Of a DNA stretch of 64,000 nt, positions 4,667 to 16,998 are shown in pieces (positions within the stretch are counted from its first letter, which is position 1; every line of letters starts with the position of its first letter). The DNA comes from Candidatus Poribacteria bacterium (lineage in GTDB: Bacteria > Poribacteria > WGA-4E > WGA-3G), in NCBI GenBank assembly GCA_009839745.1, contig VXPE01000110.1, forward strand, positions 1 through 64,000, written 5' to 3'. A program made the position numbers and the translations under genes. The notes under the pieces were generated by a model. That model saw nothing but the letters and a program-made list of their open reading frames with translations. It searched no databases and was not told where the DNA came from.

Positions 4667-5236
4667 TCAGAATACGGGATCAATTAACTTATGAAAAAGG
4701 ACAGTAGGGCTCCGTGAGATTTTTAGAAAAATCTCGGGACGATTATGCAGTTGTCCCATGGATTGGAAAGGTTGTGTTCTACGCTTGCTCCTGTTAAAGT
4801 TAAGTTCTACAATACTAACAAACCGGTACTGATAACCATTAAGAAAGTCATCCGATGCCCAAAACGATTTTCCTATGCATTGGCAGTAAGTAATAAAGCA
4901 ATATGCCCCTTTTAATTGTTGGACAACGTGGGAAGCCAATTTAGCGTCCATTTCCTGCGTCTCGATGCAGATAATCCACTTTCTTCCACGCTCATCGTTG
5001 GATACAATCACAAAATCAGCCCGTTTGCGTTCGCCCTTCGTTCCATTGAAAACAGTAAGAGGATTCTCAAAATCTTCTGCCCTGATCACAATAGAGTGAG
5101 GAGGAATCCCTTTTATTTCGACAGTCGCACCGGATTGCAAATCGGTTAATTGCACAGAAGGTCTTCCCTGACCCGGTTGTAAGGTAACTTGGATATTGGG
5201 GGTGAGCATTTCCCTCAGTATCTGAATATCATTCAC
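4667..5236 (-). CDS. Unknown protein paired with an OLD-like ATPase; possible PD-(D/E)XK-like nuclease
   Basis: 189 aa, no family recognised with certainty. The middle has a two-strand pattern, RADFVIVSN (D74) then KWIICIETQ (E92, Q94). This spacing resembles the D...ExK core of PD-(D/E)XK nucleases, but with Gln instead of Lys, so this is only a suggestion. The start codon lies 5 bp after the stop of the upstream ATPase gene, showing translational coupling and a common function. Two-gene ATPase plus effector modules are typical of phage-defence islands, and the location beside a type III restriction system fits. It is the last gene of the minus-strand island. Confidence 0.6.
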   Translation of the reverse strand: MNDIQILREMLTPNIQVTLQPGQGRPSVQLTDLQSGATVEIKGIPPHSIVIRAEDFENPLTVFNGTKGERKRADFVIVSNDERGRKWIICIETQEMDAKLASHVVQQLKGAYCFITYCQCIGKSFWASDDFLNGYQYRFVSIVELNFNRSKRRTQPFQSMGQLHNRPEIFLKISRSPTVLFHKLIDPVF

Positions 5237-5241
5237 AAAGT

Positions 5242-6621
5242 CTACTCTTCCCCCCAGACAATTTCGTCCTGAATCCTGTTCATATCATCAATCGTCTTAT
5301 CAAAGCTGCTGACTCCAATGCCAAATCTTGGATGAATTTTAGCAGGAACGAGCGTATGCCCCCTTCTCCGTCTCTTTTGCCCTTCTTCCAATGGCATCAG
5401 TTTTTCTTCCGCTACGTATACTTTGACTTGATCGGCGTTAATCAATTCACTTTCCTGATAACCGTTTTCTTCGGCGACTCTTTTCAGGTGTGGCTTGTCG
5501 TGATTGAGCATGATCAGTGTGTTCAGTTCTTTGACGATGTAATCGCTGTGGGTAGTGATGAAGACTTTAACACCCAAATTCACGAGCCTCGCAAAGAGTC
5601 TGGCGATGCGGCGTTGATTTTCCGGATGGAGACTTAATTCGGGTTCGTCTATCATCAGCAGATCACCTTTTTCGGCAATACAATTGAGATAAAAGCTGAG
5701 GTCTAAGAGTGAACGCACGGCACTTGAACTTTCCACCATTGTTAATTTGAGTCGTGTGCCTTTCGGAATATAGTAGAGTTGGTCGTTTTGTGTAATGGTG
5801 TATTCGCCCCCGATAATATCTACAAAGTCTTCCAAAATTTCGGGATGCTCTTTGGCAATGAAACTTTTGCTTTTGGCAATATCTTCAAGTTGACCCATAA
5901 AGTCGACATCGGTTCCTATTGACGATGGGTAACTTTGATACGCCTTGGATAGCAATCCCCGCAAGTCCGTCTGTTGATCTGCTCGTGCCATGTCTTTCAG
6001 CAGTTGACTCCGAGCAAAATTAAGTTCTTTCCGAAAAGTCGAGATGCCGGTACGCTCAGCTGAAGATATAAAAGGTCTGGGTAAAGAACCAGAGAAAATA
6101 TGCTCGATAATAACAAAATCAATAAAACTTTTTACACTATCGGTATCAATTTTTTTTTCTTCTTGTTTTTTTGTTGTTCTTGAAGTAAGTATTGCTGCTT
6201 CGCTTCCCTTGCCCTTTGAAAATAGGAAAGATTGGAGGCCTGTGAATAGGCTGTTGAATTGTTTACCTTGTATGTCAATCTCATCTGTCATGAAGTAGAA
6301 TTCACTCTTCTGAAACGTCCCTTCAGGTGCCGCAAAAATTGTATCCAGTTGCTCGGTGTATTTCCTGCATGCTTCTGTAAGTAGGTCATCAGTTGCTGGC
6401 ACCAATTCAATCTTAACCTGTTTTGTAAGTGCTCGCTGGATTTGGGCATCGCTAATTGGGAAACGGATGAATTGATGCCAAGACTTTAAAAAACCGAACA
6501 ATACACAAGCAGCATAAGTTTTGCCGGTGTTATTCTCACCACAGATGAGTGTCAAATCGCCCAGCGAAAATTCTGCCTGCTTTAGGATTCCAATGTTTTT
6601 TAGTTTTACTGTCAGACTCAT
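5242..6621 (-). CDS. OLD-like AAA/ABC-type ATPase
   Basis: 459-aa ATPase of the AAA_15/AAA_21 (OLD-like) group. Walker A GENNTGKT is at 28-35, an ABC-signature-like ESSSAVRSLLDLSF at 297-310, Walker B LLMIDEPE at 321-328, and the switch His in FITTHSDYIV follows. No TOPRIM nuclease domain is seen at the C-terminus, which instead has a basic KRRRRGH patch. The nuclease activity may be supplied by the next gene (4667-5236). The ATG overlaps (ATGA) the stop codon of a leftover Mod C-terminal reading frame, implying that it once followed a mod gene directly. Likely a defence-type ATPase; the trigger is unknown. Confidence 0.8.
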   Translation of the reverse strand: MSLTVKLKNIGILKQAEFSLGDLTLICGENNTGKTYAACVLFGFLKSWHQFIRFPISDAQIQRALTKQVKIELVPATDDLLTEACRKYTEQLDTIFAAPEGTFQKSEFYFMTDEIDIQGKQFNSLFTGLQSFLFSKGKGSEAAILTSRTTKKQEEKKIDTDSVKSFIDFVIIEHIFSGSLPRPFISSAERTGISTFRKELNFARSQLLKDMARADQQTDLRGLLSKAYQSYPSSIGTDVDFMGQLEDIAKSKSFIAKEHPEILEDFVDIIGGEYTITQNDQLYYIPKGTRLKLTMVESSSAVRSLLDLSFYLNCIAEKGDLLMIDEPELSLHPENQRRIARLFARLVNLGVKVFITTHSDYIVKELNTLIMLNHDKPHLKRVAEENGYQESELINADQVKVYVAEEKLMPLEEGQKRRRRGHTLVPAKIHPRFGIGVSSFDKTIDDMNRIQDEIVWGEE

Positions 6622-6694
6622 ACTGATACCTCTACAATTGTCATAGGGTCATTACTCAAAGTGTTTACAGATTTAACAGTAAGTATGAGGGCAA
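6619..6694 (-). pseudogene. Remnant of a Mod C-terminus
   Basis: Read on the minus strand this stretch gives a tail ending ...LTVKSVNTLSNDPMTIVEVSV-stop. The intact Mod (7092-9254) ends ...LAVKVVDIFGNDTMTIVEVSV-stop. The last eight residues are identical, but the DNA differs at many third positions, so this is an old or separately acquired copy. The stop TGA overlaps the ATG of the ATPase gene. The remnant begins right at the end of the DUF4325 gene. Confidence 0.75.
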
Positions 6695-7048
6695 TTACAT
6701 TGAGAATTCATCAATTTGAAATATTTGATTGAATTTCTGGGGGTCTTTGAAATATAATTTGACATCGCGAACGACAGATTCCAGGAAAGCGAGGTCGTCT
6801 GGTTCTATATCTTCCACTTTCAATAGGGAGCGAATTTTTTCCTCACTGAATGTTCCGTACAATTCACCAACTGCAGCAGTGAGGAAAGGTGTTGTTAATG
6901 CTGTGACATTGTGAAATGAGAGGACGACATCTTGATTCGCTCTCAGAGCAGCATCAAGGTGTTTATGAATCTTCTGCCCGTCGCCGGAAGCAACGCAAAA
7001 CGGGCTGCCCACGACTTTAAACATGGATATTTTAATATTTTCTGACAC
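6695..7048 (-). CDS. STAS-like domain (DUF4325) protein
   Basis: 117 aa. The central strand-helix segment VVLSFHNVTALTTPFLTAAVG is typical of the STAS-like DUF4325 domain, a small alpha/beta fold usually found in regulators or beside ATPases. The start chosen is GTG at 7048, since AAGGAG (7054-7059) sits 5-6 bp upstream; an in-frame ATG at 7111 lies inside mod and lacks such a site. It stands between mod and the leftover Mod tail, so it appears to have been inserted there. Role in the island unknown; a sensor or partner-switch function would fit the family. Confidence 0.75.
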   Translation of the reverse strand: MSENIKISMFKVVGSPFCVASGDGQKIHKHLDAALRANQDVVLSFHNVTALTTPFLTAAVGELYGTFSEEKIRSLLKVEDIEPDDLAFLESVVRDVKLYFKDPQKFNQIFQIDEFSM

Positions 7049-7091
7049 GGTTATCTCCTTAAAAAGTATCTTCTGTGTTGAGGCGACAATC

Positions 7092-9254
7092 CTACACCGA
7101 AACCTCCACAATCGTCATTGTGTCATTGCCGAAGATGTCAACGACTTTGACGGCAAGTTTGCGATGACCAGGTTTGCATTCGTGGGCAACACTGGTCAAT
7201 TCCAATGATCGGTCTTTCTTGGTGCGGAAACTTTGCCACTCATTTTCAAAAACATAATCGCCTGTCCATTGTTCTTCCCATTCGCCTGTTTGCGAATCTT
7301 GCATGCGGATAATCTCGTGTTTGCTCTCAAAGTCGAAATCGACCGACCAGTAGTCGATCCAGTCTGTCCAGTGTTTGGTTAAAACCTCACGGCTCACAAT
7401 CCCATCCGCGTCTTTGCTTACTTTTACGACTTGCCCTCTTTCTACGACGATCCGACTACTCCTGTTCTTGAGTGTCTGCTCAGCGTTGGAGATAGAATCC
7501 TGTGAGTAAAAGACAGAGAAATCGGTTAATTCCACGGCGACCGTTGCAAGTCCCCCTGATAAGGGGGATTTAGGGGGTTTGGTCGAAGAACCTCCCTTGC
7601 CCTCCTTCTCAGGAGGGTAACAGATGGTGGGTTTGACCTCAATAAACGCCATGTCATGGAATACAACCTGACCTTGTTCCACCGCTCGTTTGTCGAAAAC
7701 CTCGGCGGGAATGAATTTCGGTGAAATGTCAAGTCCCTTGCTTTTCGCCTCATCTAACACATTGGGAAACAGCCCCATCTCGAACTCAAACCCGAGAACG
7801 TCCACACGCGTAATTTGGTGTCTACGGCACTCAAGGATAATTTCCTCCACAAAGAGGCGCGTCACCGGCATATTGACAGGACCGATTGCAACAAGCCGTC
7901 CGGCTTTTTTTCCCTGGAAATTGGTGAAACTCTCGGTCTTTTCGGCAGCGTAAGCACACAAAATGAGGTCAATGAACGCCTTTTCTCTCTCTACCGATTG
8001 CTTCTGCTGTTCAGCCTCGCGCAGGTTCGGATTAACACCGATATAGTGTTGACGCTCATATTTGCCGAGATTGAGGATTTCAAAGGCGCGGTAGTCTTTA
8101 CCATCAGTCTTAAGTTGACGCTGGGCTCCGATCATCCGTTTGCGTGTAGTGTGGATAGCGAACTTGCCGAGGTCTGTAGCAATCCACTTGCGTCCTAACT
8201 TTTCAGCAACGGCAGCAGTGGTGCCAGAGCCACAGAAGAAGTCAGCAACGAGGTCACCCTCATTGGAGGACGCTTTCATGATTCGTTCCGAAAGGGCCTC
8301 GGGCTTTTGAGTGGGATAGCCTATTCTTTCCTGTCCAACAGGATTTATCATCGAGATTTCCCACATATCCGGCATTGGAACACCTTTTGTAGGCTCATCT
8401 GTCATTATAGATCGCCTAATCCCATCTTCCCCAATAACACTTTTCCATGATTTTCCTTGCGCGCTGGATTTAGATGATTTCGGGATAAAAAGCTGGTTAA
8501 AACAATGTTTCCCTTTATTTTTTGCATAATAGAAAATATTATCGTGGTTAGCTGCAAACATTTTACCAGCAATATTCCATCTCCTGTAATACCAAGATAT
8601 TTGATTAATGAAATTCTCTCTCCCAAAAATCTCATCCATTGCAAGGCGGATATAACTATTCACGCGCCAATCACAATGCACATAGATACTCCCATCCTCT
8701 GCCAATAGCTCCCGCATTAGGACCAACCGCTCATGAATCATCGCGATAAAGGAGTCTGCTCCTTGTCCCCATGTGTCGCGGTAGGCAATCTCTTCAAGGA
8801 TATTTGGATTTTTGGTAAAAGTTTCGTCCCCAATTTCGATATCCATGGAAAAGTCCGCGCCTACATCAAAAGGAGGGTCAATATAGATGAGTTTGAGTCC
8901 ACCTTGTGCTTCAATTTCCTCGCGCAGCGGTCCGTTCTTGAGCGATGACAGAACAAGTTTGTTGTCACCCCAGATCAACTTGTTTGTCCAACCTTTGCGC
9001 TGTCGGCCACGTGTGTCAAAGAGCGCGAGTTGCATATTGTCTGGGGAAGGTTTCTCAGCACGGGGTTCATCTACCTGTTCAATCGTTTGAAAGGGTAGGA
9101 CAATGTTGCAGACCTCACTGGTTTTTCCGTTCCAGACGAGTTCGACTTCGCGTTTGTCTTCAAACAGCAGGAAGCGGTACTTGTCGGGCAGCGGTTTGTC
9201 TGCCTCAATAAAGCGGATGATTTCTTGTTGTTCTTGTTCTGTAAGTCGTGGCAT
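7092..9254 (-). CDS. mod: Type III restriction-modification methyltransferase subunit (Mod)
   Basis: 720-aa DNA methyltransferase of the beta class: catalytic motif IV DPPF (126-129) precedes the SAM-binding motif DFFCGSGTT (338-346), the order seen in type III Mod proteins. It would methylate adenine in the recognition site and supply recognition to Res (11865-14546). The N-terminal region with LIWGDNKLVL and the C-terminal region ending MTIVEVSV are Mod-like. Residues about 546-570 (containing KPPKSPLSGGL) are encoded by a palindromic repeat that is found widely as an intergenic repeat in bacteria, so this segment is an in-frame insertion. SD is weak (GAGAGA). Mod and Res are not adjacent as usual; three other genes lie between them. 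Confidence 0.92.
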   Translation of the reverse strand: MPRLTEQEQQEIIRFIEADKPLPDKYRFLLFEDKREVELVWNGKTSEVCNIVLPFQTIEQVDEPRAEKPSPDNMQLALFDTRGRQRKGWTNKLIWGDNKLVLSSLKNGPLREEIEAQGGLKLIYIDPPFDVGADFSMDIEIGDETFTKNPNILEEIAYRDTWGQGADSFIAMIHERLVLMRELLAEDGSIYVHCDWRVNSYIRLAMDEIFGRENFINQISWYYRRWNIAGKMFAANHDNIFYYAKNKGKHCFNQLFIPKSSKSSAQGKSWKSVIGEDGIRRSIMTDEPTKGVPMPDMWEISMINPVGQERIGYPTQKPEALSERIMKASSNEGDLVADFFCGSGTTAAVAEKLGRKWIATDLGKFAIHTTRKRMIGAQRQLKTDGKDYRAFEILNLGKYERQHYIGVNPNLREAEQQKQSVEREKAFIDLILCAYAAEKTESFTNFQGKKAGRLVAIGPVNMPVTRLFVEEIILECRRHQITRVDVLGFEFEMGLFPNVLDEAKSKGLDISPKFIPAEVFDKRAVEQGQVVFHDMAFIEVKPTICYPPEKEGKGGSSTKPPKSPLSGGLATVAVELTDFSVFYSQDSISNAEQTLKNRSSRIVVERGQVVKVSKDADGIVSREVLTKHWTDWIDYWSVDFDFESKHEIIRMQDSQTGEWEEQWTGDYVFENEWQSFRTKKDRSLELTSVAHECKPGHRKLAVKVVDIFGNDTMTIVEVSV
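7545..7618. repeat. Palindromic repeat inserted in frame within mod
   Basis: Contains TCCCCCTGATAAGGGGGA followed by TTTAGGGGG, and a second inverted repeat CCTCCTTCTCAGGAGG. It adds about 24 codons without breaking the mod frame. Confidence 0.7.
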
Positions 9255-9284
9255 GGTTTTCTCTCTCGGTTTTTACAACGTTTA

Positions 9285-9713
9285 TTAATCGTACGGACGA
9301 TCAACTTGAACGACGGGATCCCCGACCTTGACATAACTGTCTCCTTCATAAAGATGAGACCAACCTTTGTCTTTTGTTCTCAATGTTTCGTATTTTTTTA
9401 TCCATTCGGGGGGCATAAGCGATCGAGCAAATGGTCCCAAAGGTCCGCCCTCTCCGCCGATGTTTACTGACTCTGCTTTGTATGTACTAGCGATAGCTAA
9501 TTTATCTTGAACATGGGTGATCTTCACTCTGACTCTTGGACGTTCAATAGAACCCAACACTTCGTCTGTATCTGGATCTTTTATATCTTGCCCTTGAGGA
9601 TCCATCACATCAAAATACATACCAACATCTACGCCGTGTGCTGTTCCGATGTTTATTGCTATTTCCCGTTCGTTAAGCACCCGTGCGACTTTTCCACGGA
9701 TGGGTTCTGCCAT
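9285..9713 (-). CDS. Small FlgT-C-like beta-barrel protein
   Basis: 142 aa. The N-terminal half (GKVARVLNEREIAINIG, then GVDVGMYFDVMDP) follows the pattern of the FlgT C-terminal/OB-like barrel: a strand, an Asn-rich turn, Gly-Val-x-x-Gly and a Phe/Tyr-x-Val strand. The C-terminus has a second short motif, YVKVGDPVVQVD. No signal peptide, so it acts in the cytoplasm. It lies 12 bp after the HEPN gene and 30 bp before mod in the same operon. Function unknown; it may bind nucleic acid or be a structural partner of the ParA/HEPN pair. Confidence 0.65.
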   Translation of the reverse strand: MAEPIRGKVARVLNEREIAINIGTAHGVDVGMYFDVMDPQGQDIKDPDTDEVLGSIERPRVRVKITHVQDKLAIASTYKAESVNIGGEGGPLGPFARSLMPPEWIKKYETLRTKDKGWSHLYEGDSYVKVGDPVVQVDRPYD

Positions 9714-9725
9714 TTTTTATACCTC

Positions 9726-10328
9726 TTACCAAATGTTGGCAAGCCCGTAAGTTGACTCAATATGCGTTTTCATGCCCGTGTCCGTAACATTGACAAGGTT
9801 TTTGAAGAAAGTCTCAGTCTCTTGGATCGCTTTGCTGGTTAGACGGATTTTGCCACTCGGTGATTGTATCCAATTGTAAGTTGGCATGTTAGAACCATGA
9901 GCCAGACTATGGCGAATACGTAATATCTCATTTAATCGTTGATTTACCTGCTCCCGATTCATATTAACTTGAGACCCACCCCAATCGTTGATAGGATCGT
10001 ATCCTGTGTATTGATCGAGGAGATTGCGTGTATTTTCCCAGTTTGGCGTATTAAATCTTGTCAAAGCATTACCTGCTATATTCTTAGCGAGTGTATGTAT
10101 AGCATCAAATTTTGGGTTTAACGGATCTGCTATCACATCGTAGAAATTACGCACCAAGTTATCTATGTATGCATTCCACGCTGCGACGTAACCGGTAAGC
10201 GCTGCGTGATAGTAAACCTGTATTTCGTCAAGTGACATGGGGCGCAACCGCTTATTCGTTGCTGCTCTACGCAGTGTTTGTATACGATTTGCCGAGGCCG
10301 TGTACTTCAATGCTGCTGGTGATGGCAC
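9726..10328 (-). CDS. HEPN-domain protein (RiboL-PSP-HEPN type), possible RNase
   Basis: 200 aa, mostly helical, with the R-x4-H signature at R139-H144 (RHSLAH), the catalytic motif of HEPN ribonucleases. The helix with WNAYIDNLVRNFYD is typical of the RiboL-PSP-HEPN branch found in toxin and defence loci. The start is GTG at 10328, 9 bp after the ParA-like stop, with AAAGG upstream. Placed between a ParA-like ATPase and Mod of a type III system, it is a candidate toxic effector that cleaves RNA when the system is triggered; that role is inferred. Confidence 0.75.
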   Translation of the reverse strand: MPSPAALKYTASANRIQTLRRAATNKRLRPMSLDEIQVYYHAALTGYVAAWNAYIDNLVRNFYDVIADPLNPKFDAIHTLAKNIAGNALTRFNTPNWENTRNLLDQYTGYDPINDWGGSQVNMNREQVNQRLNEILRIRHSLAHGSNMPTYNWIQSPSGKIRLTSKAIQETETFFKNLVNVTDTGMKTHIESTYGLANIW

Positions 10329-10337
10329 GAGGAACCT

Positions 10338-11432
10338 TTAAAGATAATTTACAAATTCAGTAAGAGCATTCCGATACCGTTCTAACGGTTTGGGATTGAG
10401 TTGGACCGGTTTATCGTGAACCATATTCGGTCCGGGGCGAAGACTATCTAAGGGTATTCCTTTAACCGTCATAACGACACATGCACTGTGATAGTCTGGG
10501 ACCTCTATGAACCTTTTACTCGGTAAATCTTTTGGGGATGCATAAATTTGGCGATGTTTTTTGTGAAGTTCATCCAATGTTGCTTTAATGGCCTCATTTA
10601 CTGCCTCAAAAGCCCTGCTTGCCTTGCCACCATGGAGAGTTACGCGATTACTGATGAAGGTGTGGAGTTTCGGAACATCCAAACCCTCGTCCTTTGCTCT
10701 ATTAGCAAAGTTGATTCTCGCATAAGTTTCTATTTTAGGGTCACTCACACCGTATCCATAAAGCAGGGCAACAACATTCTCCACGGCCCGACGTGAACTA
10801 TCATCAGGTGTAAAAGGCACGACAAGGTTTTCAGTTGCAGCAAGTGCCAACTGAGTATAAATAGCGAAACTCGGATTACAGTCAATAATAAAAAGTGCAT
10901 CTCTGCTTCCGCTCCGCTTACGTAACGCGATTGTCAAATCTTTGATCCAATTGAGTACTTGTTTCCATGCATCTACCGGAATGGCAAGCTGGGAGGTCTG
11001 ACGAATCGCCTCTGAGAGGATTTCCAGCAGATAATCACCGCAAACCAAAAGTAAATTTGTTGGAAGTTTTGCGTTGAAGTTCCGAGGATGGCACACATAA
11101 GGAGAAACATCATGGATCTGCTTAAATGGAGAATTCAGTCGCGCTTCAAGGTAACCCGCAACTGTAGCACGCGGCGTTTTTCCTATTAGTTTGTGTATCG
11201 GATCAACATTTTCTCGGACTACATCGTAACTATATATTGACCTTTGGTCACCGGTATCAATCAAAAGTTGGGAATCCAAGAGCAACATCTCAGAGATGTT
11301 CGCCTGTGGACAAAGGTCTATCACATAGACATCGGCGTTCGGGTAAGTACGGGCATATTCTGTTGCGGCAACAAAGCTTAAGAAACTCTTGCCAATCCCT
11401 CCTTTGTTGTTCCAAAATGCGTAAGCTGTCAT
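10338..11432 (-). CDS. ParA-like P-loop ATPase
   Basis: 364 aa from ATG 11432; this start is preceded by AGAGGGGGTGG, whereas the longer frame begins inside that site. Deviant Walker A NKGGIGKS (residues 9-16, signature Lys10 and catalytic Lys15), Walker A' VIDLCPQANIS and Walker B-like FIIDCNPSF identify a ParA/MinD/Soj-type dimerising ATPase. No ParB or parS-like cluster is seen nearby, so chromosome or plasmid partition is unlikely. Co-transcription with HEPN and barrel genes inside a restriction island suggests a regulatory or sensor ATPase. A promoter with an 18-bp spacer lies at 11482-11511. Confidence 0.85.
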   Translation of the reverse strand: MTAYAFWNNKGGIGKSFLSFVAATEYARTYPNADVYVIDLCPQANISEMLLLDSQLLIDTGDQRSIYSYDVVRENVDPIHKLIGKTPRATVAGYLEARLNSPFKQIHDVSPYVCHPRNFNAKLPTNLLLVCGDYLLEILSEAIRQTSQLAIPVDAWKQVLNWIKDLTIALRKRSGSRDALFIIDCNPSFAIYTQLALAATENLVVPFTPDDSSRRAVENVVALLYGYGVSDPKIETYARINFANRAKDEGLDVPKLHTFISNRVTLHGGKASRAFEAVNEAIKATLDELHKKHRQIYASPKDLPSKRFIEVPDYHSACVVMTVKGIPLDSLRPGPNMVHDKPVQLNPKPLERYRNALTEFVNYL

Positions 11433-11481
11433 AGTGCCACCCCCTCTCAAAAATGAAAAAACTTGTGGAAAGATGTCTTAT

Positions 11482-11511
11482 ATTTTAACATAAATTGGTA
11501 TGGTATGTCAA
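11482..11511 (-). promoter_or_regulatory. Sigma70-like promoter of the parA-HEPN-mod operon
   Basis: Minus strand: -35 TTGACA (11506-11511), 18-bp spacer, -10 TAAAAT (11482-11487), 50 bp before the parA start. It could drive all seven genes down to 4667, since the gaps between them are short. Confidence 0.65.
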
Positions 11512-11585
11512 GCGGTTTTGGGCTTTCGATAGGGTCATTTAGTTTTAAGAATTTATTCGGGTTTTTACGCTTCTTTTGACGATTT

Positions 11586-11609
11586 GGAGCGGTTAGAAAC
11601 CGCTCCTAC
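11586..11609. repeat. REP-like hairpin with CCTAC tail
   Basis: Arms GGAGCGGTT/AACCGCTCC, loop AGA, tail CCTAC. The 430-bp gap between parA and res holds this and the GCTAC-type hairpins; no gene was seen there. Confidence 0.75.
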
Positions 11610-11732
11610 CGAGTTGAGGGAGTTAAAAAGAGTAAAAATATTCACATATATAAAGTAAATATATAAACTAAATGGCTCTGGGCTTTCGATAAGGGACTTT
11701 CGCTGAATCACTGCATTCCTTTTTCAGTAGAC

Positions 11733-11842
11733 AAAGCTTACGCTACGGAGGATACACAGGCTAACAGCCTATGCTACAAGTGGCATCATGACCAACTCAA
11801 TCATCTTTTGGGGATGCATAGGAAACCAACAGCTTATGCTAC
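11733..11842. repeat. Cluster of GCTAC-tailed hairpin repeats
   Basis: A clear copy at 11756-11777 (arms AGGCT/AGCCT around AAC, tail ATGCTAC) is flanked by degenerate copies at about 11733-11750 (AAGCTTACGCTAC) and 11828-11842 (ACAGCTTATGCTAC). Confidence 0.6.
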
Positions 11843-11864
11843 CAGGTTAGTTCATAAGCATCCG

Positions 11865-14546
11865 CTACGAGGTTTTGTATTCCGTAAATCCGTCAAGCAG
11901 TTGCTGGAATGTTTCGGGTCTGTATACGTCAAAACTCTCTTGATCTACATAAACAAAGTCATAGATAGTATTTGACGAAACCTTGTTGACATCTTTACAC
12001 CATTGCGATAAGCGTTGCATCTTGCGCGGCACATCCAGATCTTCTCTCCCCTTCGTCTCAACAACGATTACGCGTCTATTCGTCAACTTAACAACAAAGT
12101 CTGGGTAGTAATTGGAAATATCGCCATCTGCATTGATATAGTCGAGTTTGAAATGCAGGCTAAAGTCGTTTTTGACGTAGGAGACGACATCTGGGCAGTT
12201 TTCGAGAAATGCGGCGAATTCCAATTCAAAATGACTGTCACCGGTGACTCTGTTGAACACAGACTTTTGGGGGACCAAGTATTCCTGTTCTTTAACCATG
12301 AAGGGACGTGCGTCCTGTGCTCGCGTTGTTTCGATCAACTTTGCATCTCCTCTATCCTGTATTGTGAGATCGTTGATAGCGTATTTGAACGTCTCCATGA
12401 CCGTTTTTGTGGCTGAGAGTTCTGACAGGTTCTGTAGGGTATCTGGGTGCTCTAACATCACCGTTTCGCCGAAAAGTTGGTTCTGGACAAAGTCTTTAAC
12501 CTTTCCATACAGCACATCGTAACCACTGATGAGTCGGAGGTCTTTACGGAGTGTCTCTGCAAAATAACCGATCACGCTGCGGTAATCAGCGACACCACTG
12601 CCGTCTAATACCGTGGTGTGCGTAACCTCGCCCGTCGCCATGTCCGTGAAAACGATTTCGCGTTCCGATGTTTCGTCAAACGCTTGGTATGCCACGGGTG
12701 TAAAACCGAACTGTGTGATATCCAAATCCGCGAGACTCGTGTACTCCCGATAGATGCGGCGCGTCAGTATCGGGACTTCAATATCAAGCGCGTCAATATC
12801 TTTGTTGACATTCGCTTTGTCCACTTCAATGACGAGGGGTGCTTTCGGTTTTGTCCCTACACCCATCGCTTGACGTTCCAATTCGACCCCTTCCGATTTA
12901 ATCTCCTCAACAAACTCCATGAAGGCATCAGTGCCAATAACACTCACAGTTTCTTCGAGACCACCCGAGTACATGAGGCGGAGCCCGCGTCCAAGCGTTT
13001 GTTCTGGTAAGATATTGGCTTTGGCGGAATAGGCGCGGAGTCCAACAATAGTCGTTACATTCTTGACATCCCATCCCTCCTTGAGCATCAACACGGAGAC
13101 AATCGCTTTGTATGGACTCTCCAGGGAATCAATCTCATTCGCCTGCTTACGGAGTTTCTCCAATTCTGCTTGTTTCTTACTGGATCTCGCCTCAGAGATT
13201 TCACCACTTCTGTTGGTATGAATGACGAGGACGGCATTTTTGAGAGCAGGATGCAGGTTTTCGAGGGACGCTGCCACTTCGTCGCAGTTCTGGGTATTGT
13301 CGGTCATCACAAATAGGATGGCTTTCTTCCCTAATTTTTCATGTTCTTCAGCTGCTTTTCGCCACTCCATAACACCGAGTTCGAGATAGTCGGCATACTT
13401 CTCGGTATACCTCACGCTTTGGCGTTCCTCAAGTTTTGCCCGGCTCTCAGCATCCGGAAGGACAGGGTGCTTAACAACATTTTGCGAAATCGCCTCTACA
13501 AGCGGATAATCTGCGACTGTTTGCACAAAAATTGCACCGTTGTCGTGCTTCGGCGTAGCACTTACATCCACTTGCAATGCCAATTCACTGCCTTTCTGCA
13601 AAAGACGATTGTGAATATCTTCAATGGACTTGAACCATGCTAACCTCCGATCGTGGACATGGTGTGCTTCATCGTTGAGGATCATCAGTTCGTCGATGTC
13701 GCGAACGATGTCTCCGAGATCAACCTTAGAATCTGTTGTTGCCCCTGTCGGCTTTTTACCGAAAAAGTAGTCCATGCTGTTATCATCATCAGGGGACGGT
13801 GGGGATTGATCGCTGGAATAGACGCGGTGGATGTTGGTGAGAAAGATGTTGCCTGTGGGTTGGGTAGTACGTACTTCGTCTTGGACGTGTAGGGTGAGTT
13901 GAAAATCGTCACGCCAGTTGTTACCTTCAAACCCGTTATCGGGCAGCACGGGATCATTAAAGAAAATGCGTAACCCCTGAAAATCGTGATAGAGTCGGTC
14001 AAGCACAATGATATTGGGGGCAATGACGAGGAAGTTGCGCGAGAGTTCGGAATCGGATTCATATAACTTGTGAAAGAAACTCCACGCGATGGCGAGGCTC
14101 ATCACTTTCGTTTTGCCTGTGCCTGTTGCCATTTTTATGACAAACCGCCGCCAGTTTTCGTCAAACAGTCCCGCTGAAACGGCGCGGGAACTGTCAAAGC
14201 GCATGAGATCGTATTCGTCCCTTACCTTGACAACATCGTATAGGTAGATGATGGTTTCGATTGCCTCGCGCTGGGCGAAGTAATACCGGAATTCTGTCCT
14301 CGTTTCATCATCCTGTTCGCTCAGGTGTTCGGTATTAAACCACCAATTGAGGAGTGCTTTGCTCGTTTCGGAGGCACCGCTGTAGTTGTTATCCCGCCAC
14401 GTTTTGACTTGTTCCCGGATCTTTTGCACAAGCGGGGGCAATAGCATCCCATATTCCTCAAACAACAGAGGCTGATCTGGAAGCCAACGCACTGCAGGGT
14501 CAATGATTGCGTGTGGAGATTCGGGAAAATCGGGGTGTAAAGCCAT
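11865..14546 (-). CDS. res: Type III restriction enzyme Res subunit
   Basis: 893-aa DNA translocase/endonuclease partner of Mod. The superfamily-2 helicase core is clear: Walker A ATGTGKT (140-146), a DEAH-like box ILNDEAHH (about 294-301), SATPK, and motif VI in LPEQTLGRGLRL. The C-terminal nuclease has a PD-(D/E)XK pattern, YYPDFVVK followed by VVETKG. All parts look intact, so Res should cut DNA when Mod finds unmethylated sites in the proper orientation. No strong SD before ATG 14546, but a consensus-like promoter is at 14602-14630. The gene is separated from mod by 2.6 kb. Confidence 0.93.
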   Translation of the reverse strand: MALHPDFPESPHAIIDPAVRWLPDQPLLFEEYGMLLPPLVQKIREQVKTWRDNNYSGASETSKALLNWWFNTEHLSEQDDETRTEFRYYFAQREAIETIIYLYDVVKVRDEYDLMRFDSSRAVSAGLFDENWRRFVIKMATGTGKTKVMSLAIAWSFFHKLYESDSELSRNFLVIAPNIIVLDRLYHDFQGLRIFFNDPVLPDNGFEGNNWRDDFQLTLHVQDEVRTTQPTGNIFLTNIHRVYSSDQSPPSPDDDNSMDYFFGKKPTGATTDSKVDLGDIVRDIDELMILNDEAHHVHDRRLAWFKSIEDIHNRLLQKGSELALQVDVSATPKHDNGAIFVQTVADYPLVEAISQNVVKHPVLPDAESRAKLEERQSVRYTEKYADYLELGVMEWRKAAEEHEKLGKKAILFVMTDNTQNCDEVAASLENLHPALKNAVLVIHTNRSGEISEARSSKKQAELEKLRKQANEIDSLESPYKAIVSVLMLKEGWDVKNVTTIVGLRAYSAKANILPEQTLGRGLRLMYSGGLEETVSVIGTDAFMEFVEEIKSEGVELERQAMGVGTKPKAPLVIEVDKANVNKDIDALDIEVPILTRRIYREYTSLADLDITQFGFTPVAYQAFDETSEREIVFTDMATGEVTHTTVLDGSGVADYRSVIGYFAETLRKDLRLISGYDVLYGKVKDFVQNQLFGETVMLEHPDTLQNLSELSATKTVMETFKYAINDLTIQDRGDAKLIETTRAQDARPFMVKEQEYLVPQKSVFNRVTGDSHFELEFAAFLENCPDVVSYVKNDFSLHFKLDYINADGDISNYYPDFVVKLTNRRVIVVETKGREDLDVPRKMQRLSQWCKDVNKVSSNTIYDFVYVDQESFDVYRPETFQQLLDGFTEYKTS

Positions 14547-14601: not shown

Positions 14602-14630
14602 ATTATACCGAAGGTGTATTAAAATCGCAA
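14602..14630 (-). promoter_or_regulatory. Sigma70-like promoter of res
   Basis: Minus strand: -35 TTGCGA (14625-14630), 17-bp spacer, -10 TATAAT (14602-14607), 56 bp before the res start. Res thus seems to be expressed separately from mod. Confidence 0.65.
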
Positions 14631-14934: not shown

Positions 14935-16998
14935 TTATTGTAAGAGTTCTATGAATGCATCAACATCCGTTGTGGGGGCTTGGCAGACGTAATTCTCGCA
15001 GACGTAGGCGGTTGCGGTGTCGTCAACTTGGGTCTTGCCAGCGAGGAGCGGTAACGTCTGTCCGTCAGTGGATTCGCTCAAGGCGACGATTTTGTTGGGC
15101 AGATACGTGCCGTGCAATGCTTCTAACATCGCCTCCGTTTTTGCATTCCCTTTTTCACCAACAATCGCAATCTCTTTGGGTGTCGATAGCAGGAATGCTA
15201 ATTCACAGAGCAGCTGCCCGGATCCTGAAGGCATCGCCTCCATTTGCTGGAAGTAGAGCAACAACGTCTCAACGGCTTTGTCGTGGAATTCAGAATTGTC
15301 AAGGTGTTTGGCGAGCCGTAGGAGACTGTGAATCGCCATGGATGCCCCGGAAGGTGTGGCACCGTCGTAAGCGGACTTGGATTGGACGATCAGCGTCTCG
15401 TGTGCTTTGCCAGTGAAGAAGAACCCGTCGCCTGCGTCGTCCCCGAACTGATCGATCATGATGTGTGCGAGGCGTTCGGCTTCAGTGAGCCACCGCGGTT
15501 CAAAACTGGCTTCGTAGAGCGCGATTAACCCAGCGATGAAGTAGGCGTAGTCCTCAAGATAGGCGTTGAGGTGGCTTTTACCGGCACGATAGGTGCGCAA
15601 GAGGAGTCCGTCCTCTTGTGATAGGGTCGTCAAGACGAATTCAGCGGATTTTTCACACGCCTCAAGGTATTCAGGTTTCCCGGTCAGTTGGTATCCCATC
15701 GCCATACCGCGAATCATGATTCCGTTCCAACTGGTGAGGATTTTGTCGTCCAATCCGGGTTTAATTCGCTTCTCTCGTTCATCAAACAACTTCTGCTTTC
15801 CATCTGCGAGAAGCGTTTCCAGTTCCTCGCCATCCAGACGCAGCTTCCGAGCAAAGACATCAGGTGGCGTCTGGACGTGGAGGATGTTTTCTCCCTCAAA
15901 GTTGCCTTGTGGTGTGATGTCGTAATACTCACAGAAGATCTGGGCATTCTCTTCACCAACGACATCTTCCACATCGTTCGGCTCCCAGACGAAGAATTTG
16001 CCCTCTACCCCTTCACTATCGGCATCTTGGGTGGAATAGAAACCGCCGTTTTCTGCGTCGTACATCTCACGGAGAACGTAATCGAGGGTTTCCGTGGCTA
16101 CATCACGATAGAACGGTTTCTGCGTGGCTTGATACGCCTCAAAATAGGCGACAACGAGTTGTGCGTTGTCATATAACATCTTCTCAAAATGTGGGACAAG
16201 CCAGTGAGCATCGGTGGAATATCGGTGAAAACCGCCACCGAGTTGGTCATACATACCCCCGCGCGCCATCTTCTCCAGTGTAAGCTCGACCATCTCTAAG
16301 GCGTTGGCGTTGCCGCTGTGGTGCCAATAGCGCAGGAGGAAAGGCAATCCCATGCTGGGTGGGAATTTGGGAGGGTCGCCGAATCCACCGTGGTGTGCAT
16401 CGAATCGCGAGTGGTAGTGCTGAAACGCCTGGGTCATCAACTCTTCCGTGAGTTCATAATGGTGCGGGTCAACGACGTTACTCATCTGGGCAAGGTGGTC
16501 AGTAATTTGGTCGGCTTGCTGTAGGACCTGCACATTTTGATCCCTGAACGCCTCAGCAACAGCATGCATCACCTTCGGGAACCCGGGTCTACCGTATCCG
16601 TCGGTCGGCGGGTAATAGGTTCCGCCGAAGAAGGGTTTCAGGTCAGGCGTGAGGAAGACCGTCATGGGCCAGCCCCCTTGACGGGCCATGATCTGGACGG
16701 CGTTCATGTAGATTTCATCTAAATCGGGACGCTCTTCTCTATCGACCTTGATGTTGATGAAAAGCTCGTTCATGACCGCGGCGATCTCTTCATTTTCAAA
16801 GGATTCGCGTTCCATGACGTGGCACCAGTGGCACGCGGAGTAGCCGATACTCAGAAGGATAGGCTTCTGGTCATCTTTGGCGCGCGTCAATGCTTCTTCG
16901 CCCCAGGGATACCAGTCAACGGGATTATGGGCATGCTGGAGCAGATAGGGGCTTGTTTCATGGATAAGGCGGTTGGTGTGTTCGGGTGTACCGTGCAT
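14935..16998 (-). CDS. YyaL-type thioredoxin-domain protein (DUF255)
   Basis: 687-aa homologue of the YyaL/SPATA20 family: an N-terminal thioredoxin-like DUF255 domain followed by an (alpha/alpha)6 glycosidase-like domain. The family signature [14 protein letters not shown] (24-37), the CHWC redox-type motif at C56-C59 and the [11 protein letters not shown] segment are present, as are [12 protein letters not shown] and [25 protein letters not shown] precedes the ATG. The cellular role of the family is not settled; a redox or sugar-modifying function has been proposed from structure. No obvious operon partner. Confidence 0.9.

Follow-up and report, generated by a model that had tools for sequence, protein, structure and literature searches.

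Background

HEPN proteins have been described both beside ParA-type ATPases and inside restriction-modification (R-M) loci. The passages of Anantharaman et al. 2013 (PMC3710099) on these associations describe a dyad of an HEPN protein of the MAE_18760 family and a ParA/Soj ATPase, in which the ATPase is proposed as the antitoxin, and list no fewer than 16 clades of HEPN proteins with links to R-M systems, with PrrC as the paradigm. Here we analyze a ParA-HEPN gene pair encoded between the res and mod genes of a type III R-M island of Candidatus Poribacteria, in a stretch of 64,000 nucleotides (positions 1 to 64,000 of the 80.7-kb contig VXPE01000110.1) that we refer to as the window. We think it probable that the pair and its promoter constitute a self-contained mobile cassette of the toxin-antitoxin (TA) or abortive-infection type, housed in an exchangeable slot between res and mod. 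An earlier reading of the same DNA, made without database searches (the sequence-only reading), had grouped ParA, HEPN and a FlgT-like barrel protein into a trio adding an RNA-cleaving response to DNA restriction.

As the 2013 passages present it, the earlier dyad resembles the window pair in having two genes, a ParA/Soj-like ATPase in the antitoxin position and an HEPN RNase. The two differ in HEPN family: MAE_18760 corresponds to PF18737, while the window HEPN belongs to PF18735 (RiboL-PSP), whose profile exceeds its cut-off in the protein of the window as well as in 8 others, PF18737 giving only 0.04-0.14. PF18737 HEPNs turned up at 26 places across 30 dyad-bearing genomes, and this ParA was absent for about 1.5 kb around each; identity with the MAE_18760 dyad is thus unsupported. 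A type III cargo slot is not mentioned in the 2013 passages on the dyad. PrrC-EcoprrI likewise sets a P-loop NTPase and an HEPN RNase inside an R-M locus, of type Ic, a setting that the ParA-HEPN pair shares in Poribacteria only. PrrC, however, is a single protein with an ABC ATPase, whereas the window ATPase is ParA-type and separately encoded; the EcoprrI system is type I and interacts with PrrC, whereas ParA-HEPN elsewhere lives without R-M. HEPN-MNT (MntA-HepT) also places an HEPN toxin next to a partner gene, but that partner is a minimal nucleotidyltransferase rather than a ParA, and its HEPN is about 130 rather than 200 amino acids long.

The impression that no named system has the gene order of this island holds for the island as a whole. 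It does not extend to the parts, as a ParA-HEPN dyad appears among the 2013 predictions and the final gene pair matches PDC-M47/PD-T4-4. Neither this ParA nor this HEPN has a PADLOC model, and a literature search of partial coverage, which a later report may have escaped, found no study of this pair.

A conserved ParA-HEPN module with its own promoter

The pair and the promoter-like site preceding it are encoded as follows.

11482..11511, minus strand: parA-HEPN promoter, TTGACA-18-TAAAAT (sigma-70-like scan, 11/12 matches), at the sharp edge of a ~90-bp conserved block
10338..11432, minus strand: ParA/Soj-type ATPase with a deviant Walker A, NNKGGxGKS (AAA_31, 8e-10), predicted to control the HEPN RNase or to act as its antitoxin; the start is likely the ATG at 11432
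9726..10328, minus strand: HEPN protein (PF18735 HEPN_RiboL-PSP, 1.7e-9), predicted endoRNase with predicted catalytic R139/H144

ParA, Res, HEPN and the barrel were searched separately in 85 genomes of the phylum Poribacteria, and neighborhoods of 10-20 kb around the matches, where contigs allowed, were then annotated. For the cross-phylum survey, a ParA alignment was scanned over the genomes of 84,980 species and the resulting loci were annotated with profiles; the 56 loci counted below have a ParA of at least 43% identity that is not cut by a contig end, and 38 of them are non-Poribacterial. Viral loci came from an HEPN scan of IMG/VR contigs. L-numbers label individual loci in these surveys.

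HEPN occurs in 16/85 Poribacterial genomes and lies directly after ParA in all 16. In the cross-phylum survey, 51 of the 56 loci have HEPN immediately downstream of ParA, the five exceptions being four Poribacterial loci in which ParA neighbors a transmembrane (TM) protein-barrel pair, and one Oscillatoria locus. Outside Poribacteria the linkage is nearly complete (37/38 loci, ParA 43-71% identical), spanning Chloroflexota, Cyanobacteriota, Pseudomonadota and Actinomycetota, and these taxa share an arrangement in which the gene of a ParA-type ATPase immediately precedes HEPN on the same strand. Below about 41% identity ParA is solitary (0/23 loci with HEPN), and these distant relatives come from temperate phages, where they neighbor cI, and from plasmids, both P1-like and small ones. 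The HEPN-linked ParA proteins form one clade (62 rows, Shimodaira-Hasegawa-like approximate likelihood ratio test 96), within which the losses of HEPN are secondary: the start of an HEPN gene remains in L049, and possibly in L050. Over 56 pairs, the protein distances of ParA follow those of HEPN with a correlation of 0.93 (Mantel 0.001). The loss pattern within Poribacteria is one-sided: every HEPN has its ParA, and four loci keep ParA after losing HEPN, as expected of an antitoxin-toxin pair.

The proteins themselves are consistent with these roles. The HEPN retains the Rx4-6H RNase motif, exactly where the sequence-only reading had placed it (R139-HSLA-H144), and R139, H140 and H144 are invariant in 56/56 homologues that reach the motif. 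Its predicted model is helical and of high confidence (predicted local distance difference test 93.9), and among solved folds the closest coherent group is that of the HepT-type HEPN toxins, with weak E-values (E about 0.6, probability 0.96); a search of solved structures with the HEPN sequence profile found no relative. In ParA, K11/K16 and D40/D185 are conserved, and its distant solved relatives are ParA/Soj proteins. No ParB was seen among the genes around parA within the window; parS was not searched for.

The region contains no more promoter-like sites in total than shuffled sequence, but the sites previously picked out before parA and before res are the best minus-strand sigma-70-like sites in it. 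Upstream of parA, a block of ~90 bp is 87-91% identical by column across 12 Poribacterial loci; it begins abruptly at the -35 box, conservation breaking off sharply upstream, and the promoter motif occurs once in the genome. The dyad thus has its own conserved promoter, as predicted from sequence. Because the block starts so sharply at the -35 box, the mobile unit looks like promoter-parA-HEPN, from ~11515 to 9726. The viral survey returned 13 HEPN loci, 4 of them with ParA, and two of these four pairs lie beside phage genes: L235 by a tail protein and L236 by an integrase and a Schlafen-domain protein. Since the same pair stands alone in many unrelated bacteria and in phages, it looks like a mobile TA or anti-phage unit and not a part of restriction.

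Several observations weigh against a TA or abortive-infection cassette. Within Poribacteria the correlation of ParA and HEPN distances is weak (0.36 Pearson, 0.05 rank). ParA is kept without HEPN beside TM-barrel genes, so it could serve other partners. No ParA lies near 9 of the 13 IMG/VR HEPN loci, some of which are cut by contig ends and all of which are more distant. The neighbors of the pair outside Poribacteria are mostly ordinary genes with scattered defense matches, and for this reason defense over simple addiction is not established. That simpler explanation, in which ParA-HEPN stabilizes islands and prophages without acting specifically against phages, would account for the mobile, phage-borne distribution, the heterogeneous chromosomal neighbors and the persistence of the dyad after R-M loss. 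It fits less well with the repeated placement of the pair inside Poribacterial defense islands or with the Schlafen, Fic, OLD/AriA-like and type IIG R-M genes near some loci of other phyla, and we judge it unlikely. Enrichment in defense islands outside Poribacteria was also considered and set aside: the neighbors are heterogeneous and the signal weak, as judged by inspection of neighbors rather than by a formal enrichment statistic.

Solitary ParA-like genes form a separate observation. In L056, L057, L058 and L060 (ParA at about 2.5-6 kb), such a gene sits at a temperate-phage immunity region beside cI or after repL-like genes in P1-like plasmids; no ParB was named near any of the four. They are possibly morons or superinfection genes. 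A general design of ParA plus effector was rejected for these relatives, the solitary phage and plasmid ParA genes having no consistent downstream partner. In the immunity region of Salmonella Gifsy-1, the region of a ParA-like gene, STM14_3218, is needed for a tRNA-fragment signal (PMC9879122). This link is suggestive, a lead only; any homology to the ParA described here is putative, and we do not use it as evidence.

Relation of the pair to restriction-modification

In Poribacteria the pair keeps company with R-M genes. Of the 21 Poribacterial ParA loci, 18 have Res and/or Mod, or what is left of them, alongside; a predicted RNase module enclosed by res and mod is thus no accident of one genome. 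The pair nevertheless looks INDEPENDENCE from R-M, and not part of the restriction machine. In L039 and L040 both genes are intact although R-M is missing (the contig of L038 ends after the start of HEPN), and in L035, L043 and L052 they are intact where only R-M fragments remain. The gene pairs are under purifying constraint (ratio of nonsynonymous to synonymous polymorphism 0.14-0.35), also where R-M is absent or decayed. At none of the 38 non-Poribacterial genomic loci does this Res or Mod lie within 6 kb of ParA. Res and Mod divergences correlate at 0.72 and those of ParA and Res at -0.10, a test that counts for little alone, as it covers 10 ParA-Res loci and even ParA-HEPN is weakly correlated within Poribacteria. 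Obligate coupling to R-M is therefore unsupported by distribution or co-divergence.

These results bear on a guard arrangement like that of PrrC, in which the R-M complex would silence ParA-HEPN and a phage block of Res or Mod would unleash an RNA-cleaving second line. The attraction of this idea is the embedding of an NTPase and an HEPN in an R-M locus, as in PrrC-EcoprrI in the passages of PMC3710099 that cover it, on the same strand with small gaps, and with Res/Mod or remnants flanking so many Poribacterial loci. Yet the pair persists without R-M or beside mere fragments, is free of this Res and Mod in other phyla, does not co-diverge with Res and has its own conserved promoter, and its ATPase is ParA-type and separate, with no fused ABC domain. 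We regard such a guard as improbable.

In one Poribacterial genus (L038-L040, L043), ParA-HEPN occupies a fixed position, downstream of a dihydrolipoamide-dehydrogenase-like gene. At this site L043 retains a Res tail and a TM-barrel pair, remnants that point to the decay of an entire island.

An exchangeable cargo slot between res and mod

The island comprises eight open reading frames between 4667 and 14546, all on the minus strand and in the order described by the sequence-only reading: Res, ParA, HEPN, FlgT-like barrel, Mod, DUF4325, OLD-like ATPase and a 189-amino-acid protein. The features beyond the ParA-HEPN cassette are these.

14602..14630, minus strand: promoter-like site of res, TTGCGA-17-TATAAT (sigma-70-like scan, 10/12 matches)
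11865..14546, minus strand: Res, 893 amino acids, type III restriction subunit-like helicase with a C-terminal PD-(D/E)XK motif (ResIII 7e-18; RE_endonuc 2e-4, weak)
9285..9713, minus strand: FlgT_C-like barrel (FlgT_C 7e-4, below the Pfam cut-off), corresponding to the second gene of a distinct TM protein-barrel cargo pair
7092..9254, minus strand: Mod, type III N6-adenine methyltransferase (N6_N4_Mtase 1e-42; PADLOC MTase_III 1e-113)
6695..7048, minus strand: DUF4325 STAS-like protein (DUF4325 1e-14), recurrent cargo downstream of Mod; the start is likely the GTG at 7048
5242..6621, minus strand: OLD-like ABC ATPase, PDC-M47A / PD-T4-4_A homologue (AAA_15/OLD-like 6e-25; PADLOC 1e-183, 9e-146)
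4667..5236, minus strand: PDC-M47B homologue, 189 amino acids, putative PD-(D/E)XK nuclease partner of the OLD-like ATPase (PADLOC 6e-56; HSDR_N_2 0.02, weak)

From parA through the last gene the intergenic gaps are small, as had been noticed (5 to about 75 bp), while Res and parA are spaced ~430 bp apart. The type III component set is complete, with Mod as a beta-class N6 methylase and Res as a superfamily 2 helicase plus nuclease; Walker A GTGKT, DEAH and a PDF...ETK nuclease motif can be read from the Res sequence. The same arrangement recurs in other genomes and is thus far beyond chance. What stands of the proposed composite defense is an island of defense type whose res and mod genes enclose a predicted RNase module; neither the trio as a unit nor its dedicated coupling to DNA restriction does. 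On the Res side, the island is bordered by a thioredoxin-domain (DUF255-like) gene (14935-16998 in the window), likewise in many genomes of the genus, and this gene marks a conserved integration site.

Cargo separates res and mod in Poribacterial loci with Res before Mod; the two genes are directly adjacent only in L147 and L149, where mod precedes res. Judged by its varying gene content, the res-mod gap in Poribacteria is an exchangeable cargo slot, occupied as follows.

ParA-HEPN: L046
ParA-HEPN and TM-barrel: L036, L047; in another order in L041
ParA and TM-barrel: L037, L049, L050
ParA-HEPN and another TM protein: L034, L042
TM-barrel alone: L138, L148
TM proteins and barrel: L136, L141, L146
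Mrr-type nuclease: L140, L150; with ParA-HEPN in L052

L144 has a res-mod gap of ~1 kb with no recognizable cargo. In L044, an IS605-type transposase gene lies beside ParA-HEPN.

The barrel belongs to a module of its own. The FlgT likeness originally noted is borne out by a Foldseek fold match (E 2-5e-4), though the model is reliable only in its first ~80 residues. Of the 21 barrel copies in Poribacterial R-M loci, 17 immediately follow a small protein with 1-2 predicted TM segments; the other four are in the window, L142, L153 and L047 (its second copy). The contiguous order ParA-HEPN-barrel, with no TM gene, is seen in the window only, and the window has therefore probably lost the barrel's TM partner. 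We accordingly rejected the trio as a unit: ParA-HEPN is one module and TM protein-barrel another. When its location relative to mod and res was surveyed, the trio was found mostly away from them, the outcome that the sequence-only reading had named beforehand as speaking against it. A co-evolved eight-gene machine that joins barrel, HEPN, ParA, Mod and Res in one complex is very improbable, for all that the genes are co-directional with small gaps and the barrel lies just upstream of Mod in most barrel-bearing loci, because every res-mod component is dispensable across genomes, the contents of the slot vary, and Mod and Res are directly adjacent in L149 and L147.

A second variable stretch lies downstream of Mod and carries HATPase, DUF4325, PIN, a second OLD-like gene and the pair of OLD-like ATPase and 189-amino-acid protein. 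This last pair is WonAB/PD-T4-4-like, since PADLOC assigns PDC-M47A/B and the ATPase also matches PD-T4-4_A; by profile, 4667-6621 has the operon layout of PD-T4-4 and WonAB, with an OLD-like ABC ATPase first and a putative PD-(D/E)XK nuclease second, the nuclease residues being weakly supported. The relation of WonAB to PD-T4-4 is described in PMC12137116. The likeness is confined to these two genes, a separate predicted cargo. After Mod in L034, L045 and L046 we observed a recurring block of HATPase_c, DUF4325 STAS-like and PIN-domain proteins, possibly a further signaling or toxin module.

Three further observations concern Mod and the barrel. The window Mod carries an in-frame insert of ~17 amino acids (7549-7620) derived from a dispersed palindromic repeat (CCTAAATCCCCCTTATCAGGGGGACT), whose core has 29 copies in the genome against 0 for a reversed control; aligned to the window protein, the Mod of L144 is without this insert. 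In L047 (10895-16265), barrel-Mod is duplicated in tandem, both Mod copies being about 75% identical to the window Mod, which probably gives two methylation specificities in one island. Finally, a 6.6-kb Glutamicibacter plasmid (L059:4485-6311) encodes in a row a CAP12-type TIR protein, a small TM protein and a FlgT-like barrel, a candidate defense operon sharing the TM-barrel pair with the Poribacterial slot; the TM proteins of the two are similar in layout and scarcely similar in sequence (E 0.004).

Proposed mechanism and implications

The mobile TA or abortive-infection cassette that we favor draws on the conservation of the pair and its promoter, the clade-wide linkage, the invariant predicted catalytic residues, the independence from R-M and the presence on phage contigs. 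RNase activity, the antitoxin role, the trigger and defense itself are predictions from these observations. The HEPN would be a metal-independent endoRNase toxin and, like other HEPNs, probably a dimer. The ParA-type ATPase would be produced ahead of it from the shared transcript and keep it inactive in an ATP-dependent complex. Phage infection, through replicating DNA, nucleotide change or loss of ParA, may release HEPN, and the freed enzyme would cut RNA and stop growth. R-M would act on DNA independently, the slot stacking defenses side by side.

A bolder combination seems possible, though on the doubtful side. ParA-HEPN may be a widespread anti-phage system in which ParA, as an ATP sandwich on DNA, reads foreign or replicating DNA and switches the HEPN RNase, and the res-mod gap in this lineage of Poribacterial R-M may at the same time serve as a dedicated dock for interchangeable effectors (ParA-HEPN, TM-barrel, another TM protein, Mrr nuclease), which would be expressed together with Mod to back up restriction.

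The kind of dyad was predicted before; new here is a predicted TA/abortive-infection dyad as exchangeable cargo of a type III R-M island. What occupies one paragraph in the 2013 passages becomes a defined family with a clade, a promoter, predicted catalytic residues and many natural homologues, among them those of the cultivable Azospirillum and Delftia, convenient for cloning. Between res and mod there can be a hotspot of exchangeable cargo, so looking inside R-M operons may reveal further effectors.

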